A stretch of DNA of 64,000 nucleotides, taken from NCBI RefSeq assembly GCF_023806485.1, contig NZ_JAMSLR010000003.1, positions 314,965-378,964 of the forward strand, in the 5' to 3' direction. Source of the stretch: Thermalbibacter longus. GTDB taxonomy: Bacteria > Chloroflexota > Chloroflexia > Thermomicrobiales > Thermomicrobiaceae. The notes below the pieces were generated by a model. The model did not search any database. It saw only the letters and a list, made by a program, of their open reading frames with translations, and was not told where the DNA came from. Within the stretch, counting starts at the first letter, position 1. Every line of letters starts with the position of its first letter. Positions 49,835 through 57,831 of the stretch are shown here, piece by piece. The position numbers and the translations under genes are program-made.

Positions 49835-50185
49835 GTGCCCCGCGGCGAGCTGGGCTCACTACGACTGGAACCGGAGCTACACGGACGGGCGCTCGGGCTG
49901 GAGCTCGTTCTCCAGGCTGCGGAGTGGCCGCGCGCACGGCAGCGCGTCTGCCGTGATCTGTTAGACGACTTTGCCGGCGTTCTACGGCCGCGCTGGCGCT
50001 CGCGTCTGGCGCGCCTGTTACTCCACGACCTGCAAGCTGCCCAGGGCCGGCCCGGAGTCCTTGCGGTCACCGCGGGTTCCCTGCGCGCGGCAGTCTCGAG
50101 AAGTAGCCTGAGGCTGGTATCGTTCCTGGCTCGTACCGTGTGCCGCGCCGCTGGTGAACACGAGACACGTCCGTATAGGCATTGA
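49835..50185 (+). CDS. Possible small protein (116 aa), low confidence
   Basis: A GTG-started frame with GGAG ten bases upstream. It reads as a plausible basic-helical protein (LHGRALGLELVLQAAEW, RQRVCRDLLDDFAGVLRPRW, RLARLLLHDLQAAQG, SLRLVSFLARTV). Third codon positions are mostly G or C, as in real genes of this genome. No family recognised, and a longer antisense frame also exists. Its stop overlaps the -35 of the structured RNA promoter. Confidence 0.28.
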   Translation: MPRGELGSLRLEPELHGRALGLELVLQAAEWPRARQRVCRDLLDDFAGVLRPRWRSRLARLLLHDLQAAQGRPGVLAVTAGSLRAAVSRSSLRLVSFLARTVCRAAGEHETRPYRH

Positions 50186-50210
50186 CAGGCCGGGGCGGGT
50201 GAGGTATCCT
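50182..50210 (+). promoter_or_regulatory. Consensus promoter of the structured RNA
   Basis: Perfect -35 TTGACA (50182-50187), the ideal 17-base spacer and TATCCT (50205-50210). Transcription is expected to start near 50217. Confidence 0.75.
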
Positions 50211-50216
50211 GGATGT

Positions 50217-50467
50217 GCTGAGCGCTGGAGCGCTCAGGCTGAATGTGCGGCGAGACCTGTTCCGCCGCATTGCTGTGTCTCAAGAAGAGCACAGCGCGAG
50301 TCGCTCTCCGCGTGGGGAGCGTGCAGAAGTCGACCGTGGAGGGTAGATCGGTGGATTCCGGAGGAGTCCCAGAACGCAGTACCTGCTCCACGGGCTGACC
50401 GGCTTGGGTGCCTCTGAGCGCGACAGTGTAGGCTAGCACCTCCGCGCCCCCGGTCAGTCCGGGGGCG
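50217..50467 (+). ncRNA. Unassigned structured RNA of about 250 nt
   Basis: From the expected start to a closing hairpin the stretch is a chain of stems. These are GAGCGCT/AGCGCTC (50220-50235), ATGTGCGGCG/CGCCGCAT, GCTGTG/CACAGC, GCTCTCC/GGGGAGC, a long arm closed by CCGTGGAG/CTCCACGG with inner GGTA/TACC and GGATTCC/GGAGTCC, GGTGCCT with AGGC-TA-GCACC, and finally CGCCCCCG/CGGGGGCG. No convincing reading frame runs through it. The conserved sequences of RNase P, SRP, tmRNA, 6S, T-box, cobalamin, TPP and FMN elements are absent. It could be an independent RNA or a long leader of the 62-codon gene that starts at 50510. Ends are estimated. Confidence 0.55.
50445..50467 (+). terminator. Closing GC hairpin of the structured RNA
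   Basis: A perfect 8-bp stem, CGCCCCCG/CGGGGGCG, with a seven-base loop. The following bases (ACTTGTCAG) are not a proper T-run, so termination may be partial or factor-assisted. Confidence 0.4.
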
Positions 50468-50509
50468 ACTTGTCAGTAGTGTGAACCTGGCAAGAAAGGA
50501 GGTGGGCCG

Positions 50510-50698
50510 ATGCAGACCTACATCCGCTACACCATCACCAACCAGGACGGGCGGCCGGTCATCCGGGCCGTGCCGGTGCCGCGGAGGATCGAGACCTCGG
50601 TCGTCGAGGCCGCGCCGGCCCAGGAGACCAAGGGTGAGCGGGTCGAGCAGCCGCTCGTCCAGCGGATCCGGCGGTTCCGCCTGCTCGATATCCGCTGA
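50510..50698 (+). CDS. Small conserved-looking protein (62 aa)
   Basis: A 62-residue basic protein (YIRYTITNQDGRPVIRAVPVPRR; VQRIRRFRLLDIR) with the best ribosome binding site in the window, AGAAAGGAGGT, five bases before the ATG. No signal peptide, helix or cysteine motif. No family recognised. It starts 43 bases after the closing hairpin of the structured RNA and is followed by a GC-rich hairpin at 50726-50758. Confidence 0.65.
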   Translation: MQTYIRYTITNQDGRPVIRAVPVPRRIETSVVEAAPAQETKGERVEQPLVQRIRRFRLLDIR

Positions 50699-50725: not shown

Positions 50726-50758
50726 CGACCCCCGCGGGCGACAACCCGGCGGGGGTCG
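50726..50758 (+). terminator. GC hairpin after the 62-aa gene
   Basis: A perfect 10-bp stem, CGACCCCCGC/GCGGGGGTCG, with a 13-base loop followed by TGGCATTTCC. It lies between convergent genes and may act in both directions. Confidence 0.55.
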
Positions 50759-56549: not shown

Positions 56550-56560
56550 CGGGCTGGACA

Positions 56561-56628
56561 GGGCGATGAGGCTCGCCTGGCGGCGAGTCAGCCGCCGAAC
56601 CGCCAATCCTGGCTGATAGCCTCTACGC
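56561..56628 (+). ncRNA. Fluoride riboswitch (crcB motif)
   Basis: The aptamer reads GGGCGATGAGGCTCGCC, then an extra hairpin, GAACCGCC, AATCCT, GGCTGATAGCCTCTACGC. This follows the known fluoride riboswitch pattern GGCGATG-AGGCC-CGCC...AACYGCC...GGCTGAT-GGCC-TCTAC. GGCG (56562-56565) pairs with CGCC (56574-56577). GCC (56602-56604) pairs with GGC (56611-56613). The loop AGGCT (56569-56573) forms the pseudoknot with AGCCT (56618-56622), co-varying from the published AGGCC/GGCCT. An additional perfect hairpin, GGCGGC-GAGTCA-GCCGCC (56579-56596), sits between the two stems. A terminator overlaps the 3' pseudoknot strand, so fluoride should allow read-through (an ON switch). Confidence 0.9.
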
Positions 56629-56658
56629 GTGACCTCCGGTCGGTGCGTGGAGGCTTTT
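56619..56658 (+). terminator. Riboswitch-controlled terminator
   Basis: GCCTCTACGC (56619-56628) pairs with GCGTGGAGGC (56645-56654), ten pairs with one G-T wobble, followed by TTTT. The left arm contains most of the pseudoknot strand AGCCT, so the folded aptamer and this terminator exclude each other. The right arm contains GGAGG, the ribosome binding site of the next gene. Confidence 0.82.
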
Positions 56659-57831
56659 GTGTTCGGGTCACATCGACTGGTCGTCGGCCCCGCGGACACG
56701 CTCCGCTTATCCGCCTGGCTGTCCGGGATCCTCGCTGGTGCCCAGCGGCTCCTCGGCGTTCGAGAGCCGGCGCCCGACCGTTATCTCCTCGGTGCTCTCG
56801 AGGAGGAGCTGGTACGAGCCGGCTGCCCGGTCTGCCGCCTCCAGGCCCGCAAGGAGCTGCGCGGGCTCGAGGCATTACTCTGGGAGCAAGTCACCGATCC
56901 CCTGACACACCGGCGACTCCTCGCCTCGCGTGGCTTCTGCTTCGAGCATACCTGGGCACTGATCCCCGCCGGGCACCTGGTGCACAGTCACCATGGCGTG
57001 GCGATCATCCTCGACCGGCTGCTGCGCGACTTTCTGGCACGAGCCGGCACCGGGGGCGTCGAAGCCGCCCGGCGATGGCTGCGACCGGATGGCCCATGCC
57101 CGGCTTGCGAGTGGAACCGCGCGGCCGAGGACACGCTGCTGTGGGCACTGGTCTGGCTTGCCGGACGAGATCCTGGCCTTGTTAGTGAGGGCCCGGCGGT
57201 GCTCTGCCGGCCGCATGCTGCCGCTCTCATCGAGTACGTCCCGGCCGAGCGGCGACTGGCCCTCGAGCGCGGGATCGTTGCGCGGCAGGAGCAGGCACTT
57301 GACGAGAGCACGGTTGAGGAGCGGCTCGCCCTGCTCTTCGGCCGGCAGCCGCATGAGCTTCCCCCGCGAGTAGTCTCCTGCCCCGCCTGCGCGCGGGCAC
57401 GCCGGTCCCTCCTCGATGACGATTCCTGGCAACGGTCGCGGCTGCATGCCTGGGTTGCATTGCGGGACGCGCCGGAACGAGTCGCCGAGGCGCTAGCCCA
57501 GGGCCTCCCGAACCCAGTCGGCCGGCTCGGCCATCCTGCTCCGCTGCGAGCGCCGGATACTGCCGTCGATCCTCTCTGCCTCGGACACTTGCGCCAGCTT
57601 CTGGTCGCAACCGGGTCTCGCGAGGCGCTGCGAGCTGCGCTCGAGGGGCTGGAGCGGCTGGCGGAGGCGCTCGAGGGGTTCATCGCCAGCGCCGACTACC
57701 GCTTTACCGGCGAGCTGACGCCGGCCCAGCGCCGGAGCTGGCGACAGGTCGTGGCCCGCTTCGCTGGGGAGACGCCGGGCGTCGGGCTGCACGATCCGCT
57801 TTCCGGTTCGCCCGGGAGGCGATGCGAGTAG
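56659..57831 (+). CDS. Triple CxxC...CxxH protein (DUF6062-like), first gene of the fluoride riboswitch operon
   Basis: A 390-residue, mostly helical protein with three metal-site-like repeats: CPVC (56-59) with FCFEH (Cys 94, His 97); CPAC (147-150) with LCRPH (Cys 183, His 186); CPAC (241-244) with LCLGH (Cys 307, His 310). The first repeat, CPVCRLQARKELRGLEALLW...VTDPL...LLASRGFCFEH, resembles DUF6062. No transmembrane helix or exporter motif. GTG 56659 is chosen because GGAGG in the terminator arm is five bases upstream; an in-frame GTG at 56629 would start inside the terminator loop. It is followed after 31 bases by the HEAT gene. A metal-binding or redox role is inference. Confidence 0.75.
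   Translation: MFGSHRLVVGPADTLRLSAWLSGILAGAQRLLGVREPAPDRYLLGALEEELVRAGCPVCRLQARKELRGLEALLWEQVTDPLTHRRLLASRGFCFEHTWALIPAGHLVHSHHGVAIILDRLLRDFLARAGTGGVEAARRWLRPDGPCPACEWNRAAEDTLLWALVWLAGRDPGLVSEGPAVLCRPHAAALIEYVPAERRLALERGIVARQEQALDESTVEERLALLFGRQPHELPPRVVSCPACARARRSLLDDDSWQRSRLHAWVALRDAPERVAEALAQGLPNPVGRLGHPAPLRAPDTAVDPLCLGHLRQLLVATGSREALRAALEGLERLAEALEGFIASADYRFTGELTPAQRRSWRQVVARFAGETPGVGLHDPLSGSPGRRCE

Follow-up and report, generated by a model that had tools for sequence, protein, structure and literature searches.

A conserved leader RNA of Thermomicrobiales with a Shine-Dalgarno-sequestering platform and a probable role in the control of magnesium uptake

The leader, its fold and the search for a known class

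The window, i.e., the whole stretch of 64,000 nucleotides of Thermalbibacter longus analysed here, carries an element that runs from a promoter to the Shine-Dalgarno (SD) sequence of a small-protein gene (Table 1). Its extent was best set at 50182-50510, as the SD belongs to the structure. The promoter had been predicted to be the best in the window, and the counts agreed with this: 10/12 sites occur only twice in the window, and TTGACA is intact in this one alone, with 0.0 such promoters expected in shuffles of the region. It gives rise to a leader of ~295 nt, the transcript of which would start near 50217. The SD of the ATG at 50510 is AAAGGAGGTG, and the closing hairpin ends 43 nt before this start codon, as predicted. 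The inverted repeat located 3' of the gene is the probable 3' end of the transcript. The open reading frames crossing the RNA were rejected as coding because homologues from the same genus show indels of 1-4 nt that are not multiples of three. Elsewhere in the window, a fluoride riboswitch (RF01734, 39 bits, E 2.9e-7) was detected on the forward strand at 56553-56632, directly upstream of an ORF of ~400 aa (56629-57831).

Table 1. Features of the leader and the gene that follows it (window coordinates).
Feature	Position	Strand	Basis or remark
Sigma-70 type promoter TTGACA-17-TATCCT	50182-50210	+	similar TTGAC...TAT.. at the same place in homologues
5' part of the leader, variable hairpins A-D	50217-50321	+	fold; differs between genera in the alignment
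Hairpins A, B, C, D	50219-50236, 50246-50269, 50272-50295, 50302-50321	+	fold
Conserved core (presumed sensor)	50319-50404	+	model R2, 52 bits, E 1.4e-7 (G000:C23:365283-365368; this copy is among the sequences used to build R2)
Core stem CCGTGGAG (50334-50341) with CTCCACGG (50386-50393)	50334-50393	+	fold; helix of the CGUUGG/CCAACG type, for which covariation was detected in families f1 and f2
Conserved GCTGACCGG, proposed switching (antiterminator) strand	50394-50402	+	complementary to 50450-50458
Anti-SD CACCTCC	50437-50443	+	
Terminator-like GC hairpin CGCCCCCGGTCAGTCCGGGGGCG (closing hairpin)	50445-50467	+	no U-tract in the window copy
Second hairpin CTTGTCAG...CTGGCAAG	50469-50494	+	directly 5' of the SD
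SD GGAGGTG	50498-50504	+	partner in the OFF fold: 50437-50443
Regulated gene, 62-aa small protein MQTYIRYTITNQDGRPVIRAV...	50510-50698	+	
GC-rich inverted repeat 3' of the small gene	50727-50757	+	kept in homologues

A fold of -136.1 kcal/mol was obtained for 50217-50475, as opposed to -113.6 +/- 5.0 kcal/mol for its shuffles (z -4.56, 0/200), and the multi-stem architecture with a closing hairpin is the one described in the original prediction. The prediction that the RNA belongs to no known class also stood: the comparison with Rfam 15 yielded no match for the window region at the gathering threshold and none at E<10, and no covariance-model match to T-box, tmRNA, RNase P, 6S, SRP or any other family of that release. 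Nine homologous loci gave only unrelated chance matches at E<5, while the copy of the RNA next to mgtE matched no family at either gathering or permissive thresholds. No Rfam riboswitch resembles the core motif at E<10, and the M-box (RF00380) is absent from the window's genome (no covariance-model match at gathering). Our literature search found no paper describing the RNA of the window.

Distribution and gene neighbourhood

Conservation in relatives, on which the original prediction was made to depend, was found at two levels. The whole element, from the promoter to the start codon, shows 83-87% identity in three genomes of the same genus (BLASTN, 331 nt), and the same search matched its 3' half in Thermomicrobium-type genomes; the core is kept across the order. 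A second copy of the RNA on contig C1 of the window's genome has its core, its GCTGACCGG strand and its hairpin in common with the first. The covariance models R1 and R2 matched 41 of the 61 Thermomicrobiales genomes, or about 40, as the match in G009 (L168) is doubtful and was excluded, neither the core motif nor the small protein being present. None of the 97 other genomes of the class was matched, and 400 genomes of the phylum added one borderline match (G328, E 6e-4), which is probably due to chance and has no small-protein gene in the stretch examined. R1 also gave weak matches at L107, L111, L113, L114, L117, L119, L120, L122/L123 and L127-L129; as they have neither of these two features, we dismissed them as chance, and L122 looks like 23S rRNA. 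In our estimate, the RNA is likely to represent a class of cis-regulatory RNA that has not been described before and is restricted to Thermomicrobiales.

The 3' side of the RNA is nearly always adjoined by a gene of one small-protein family, of which the 62-aa ORF of the window is a member, and the distance from the RNA to its start codon was 165-209 nt in every leader measured. The family is defined by the motif (I/V)RY(Y/T)(I/V)...(V/I)R.V.V and a basic, arginine-rich C-terminal tail. A search of the order with its profile returned 33 confident genes, all of which directly follow the RNA. The protein had no match in Pfam, NCBIfam or PDB, its named relatives come from records of Thermomicrobiaceae, Thermomicrobium, Sphaerobacter and Sphaerobacteraceae, and AlphaFold predicted only a beta hairpin (residues 4-23), with a low-confidence tail. 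In several genomes of family f3 (L102, L106, L108, L167, L169), the next gene encodes a protein of 110-180 aa with the pattern IHRxGxGPxARVxDxxRG, which may belong to the same regulon.

A Mg2+ transporter gene lies downstream on the same strand in 12 of the 43 copies of the RNA, representing nine genera (mgtE in ten, corA in two), where a simple estimate gives 0.018 such links expected by chance among the 43 copies. The remaining 31 copies have no transporter within 1.5 kb, several of them being located at contig ends. The order RNA, small ORF, mgtE was observed in seven f3 genomes (G054, G038, G039, G022, G031, G033 and G029), and corA follows the RNA in G030 (family f2) and G044. The RNA is found, like the M-box, as a leader of Mg2+ transport genes. 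In the window's genus, g1, a short ORF coupled to mgtE follows a second copy (G000, G002, G003), and an ancestral operon type appears to have been split there, with one copy of the RNA on the small-protein gene and the other on mgtE. The g1 ORF between the RNA and mgtE (L068/L070/L071; G000:C1 ~466400-466650 and relatives) has 67 aa in the window's own genome and ~117 aa in relatives, with common first residues MP[SI]AGRVR and common C-terminal residues; its end overlaps the start of mgtE, which suggests translational coupling. A weak small-protein match was also noted ~1.1 kb before an MgtE domain in G034 (C99:35597-35737), where no RNA was detected; a leader too diverged for the model may be present there.

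Within the order, the M-box was found only in genus g4, upstream of mgtE in all four genomes (L131-L134), while the new RNA remains there on the small-protein gene. This restricted occurrence points to either a recent acquisition or the retention of an ancestral M-box.

Expression platform and alternative folds

All copies have in common an anti-SD, a GC hairpin and the SD. The elements follow the core in the order GCUGACCGG, anti-SD, GC hairpin, usually a second hairpin and SD, and in the homologues from g2 and g4 a U-tract comes after the hairpin, as in textbook terminators. The anti-SD and SD differ between genera, yet remain complementary: CACCUCC/GGAGGUG, GUGCCAC/GUGGUAC, GCGCACC/GGUGCGU, GGUCGCCC/GGGCGACC and GGGCCUCC/GGAGGCCC. 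In G005, both strands are altered together (CGAGCUGGUCGGG with CCCGAGCUAGCUCG).

In permutation tests, from which phylogenetic relatedness is not fully removed, the anti-SD and SD of the same leader paired at -17.3 kcal/mol as opposed to -13.4 kcal/mol for swapped partners, a result equalled in 0 of 2000 permutations; the pairing of the antiterminator strand GCUGACCGG with the hairpin arm gave likewise 0/2000, the negative control pairing gave 1325/2000, and the outcomes of both tests were unchanged at about one sequence per genus. The two pairings form a mutually exclusive platform, in which each alternative can form and pairs better within a genus than between genera. Covariation was also detected for the core helix type CGUUGG/CCAACG in families f1 and f2 (1/2000 permutations). 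The core hairpin P1 and helix P3 received weak support from RNAalifold and pair counts in the whole-order alignment, because the core hardly varies; the covariation proposed as a check was observed for the platform helices and the f1 and f2 core helix, and by itself it lends no support to P1 or P3. A pseudoknot within the core, with CGUUGG/CCAACG crossing GGYAG/CURRCC, is put forward here as a hypothesis.

The minimum free energy fold of the window copy is the SD-closed (OFF) fold, and it is more stable than the alternative ON fold by 21 kcal/mol. Switching in this copy would therefore have to be kinetic, during transcription, or decided by a ligand.

Interpretation and comparison with known systems

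With very high confidence, the RNA of the window is a conserved, structured leader in the 5' UTR that acts in cis and contains a platform for the sequestration of the SD. The original prediction had left a choice between a free RNA and a very long leader; the nearly constant spacing, the covarying SD helix and the Mg2+ transporters decide the matter in favour of the leader and against the free RNA. Its structured-RNA reading was borne out, while the small-protein family, the link to magnesium and the anatomy of the switch had not been foreseen. That the RNA is part of the regulation of Mg2+ transport is strongly supported and very likely. As the RNA precedes magnesium-uptake genes in related species, a magnesium-responsive switch is probable, and our best reading, with somewhat better than even confidence, is a small monocistronic mRNA the 5' leader of which represents a new class and acts as a Mg2+-OFF switch for Mg2+-uptake operons. 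Such a leader would probably be a riboswitch of the Mg2+-OFF type, with the identity of the ligand suggested by the gene neighbours; direct sensing of Mg2+, with the gene OFF at high Mg2+, has about an even chance.

The comparison of homologues shows a platform in which the anti-SD, brought close by the GC hairpin, pairs with the SD and closes the start site, and in some genera the U-tract after the hairpin can cause transcription termination as well. According to the proposed mechanism, the GCUGACCGG strand, located beside the core stem, can pair instead with the 5' arm of the hairpin, an alternative supported by the permutation results, which would break the hairpin, free the SD and turn the gene ON. 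At sufficient intracellular Mg2+, the core would fold around its ligand and retain GCUGACCGG, leaving the gene OFF, whereas at low Mg2+ the alternative pairing would turn it ON. The regulon would be Mg2+ uptake, consisting of mgtE or corA together with the small protein.

The genome is GC-rich, which would favour a chance fold with no function, but the z of -4.6 and the order-wide conservation with compensatory change contradict this explanation, to which we give practically no weight. A free-standing small RNA that merely precedes the gene would fit the strong promoter of its own and the closing hairpin; the near-constant spacing to the start codon, the pairing with the SD and the conserved link to the downstream gene led us to reject this reading as highly improbable. 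Autogenous control would mean that the small protein, which is rich in arginine, binds the leader of its own gene in the manner of a ribosomal protein and that the transporters belong to its regulon. In favour of this, no partner of the RNA is more constant than the small protein, the C-terminal tail of which is basic. However, the RNA is not confined to the gene of such a binding protein: in G030 and G044 it stands before corA with no detectable intact small-protein gene, and the second g1 copy is located at mgtE without the family. The protein is, moreover, predicted to be only a small beta hairpin with a low-confidence tail, and we consider this explanation improbable.

It is also unlikely, though less so, that the leader responds to another ligand (a different divalent metal, a nucleotide, or a tRNA or ribosome signal) under conditions that make Mg2+ uptake useful as well. 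The core motif is unlike that of any known aptamer, and the metal of MgtE-type genes may be misannotated (PMC11109978); against this stand the occurrence of the RNA with two unrelated families of Mg2+ transporters and the M-box that holds the mgtE position in the sister genus.

Returning to the Mg2+-OFF switch, its furthest-reaching form is a second, independently evolved class of Mg2+ riboswitch, with a pseudoknotted core the 3' strand of which serves as the antiterminator, controlling operons that encode the small protein with MgtE or CorA and exchangeable with the M-box in evolution. We propose this form tentatively, at somewhat less than even confidence. If true, it would provide a second solution to Mg2+ sensing, unrelated to the M-box and placed before both MgtE and CorA, for comparison with the first; in the sister genus g4, the M-box and this RNA can apparently replace each other at mgtE. 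Direct sensing of Mg2+ is known in few RNA classes, and how an RNA senses an ion that all RNAs bind is a live question. A small-protein family would also be newly tied to Mg2+ uptake, in parallel with the small uORF under M-box control in Mycobacterium tuberculosis.

The M-box, or ykoK leader (RF00380), is the known Mg2+ riboswitch that likewise precedes mgtE-type transporters as a leader, with the OFF state expected at high Mg2+. The RNA described here has no sequence or structure match to RF00380, its core motif is different and its range is much narrower. With riboswitches that attenuate transcription or translation, it shares the order of a core followed by an exclusive antiterminator/terminator and an anti-SD/SD platform, but its ligand is putative and its core differs from those of the Rfam riboswitches at E<10. 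Another candidate leader of mgtE comes from Thioalkalivibrio, which belongs to the Gammaproteobacteria. This motif, SRC-65-1, is an orphan riboswitch candidate with 32 representatives, reported from Thioalkalivibrio only, and is described as having the SD in a terminal stem (PMC11109978). The pe20 M-box of M. tuberculosis controls a conserved small uORF through a translational platform of anti-SD and anti-anti-SD, a layout strikingly like that of the leader and small gene of the window (PMC12810186).
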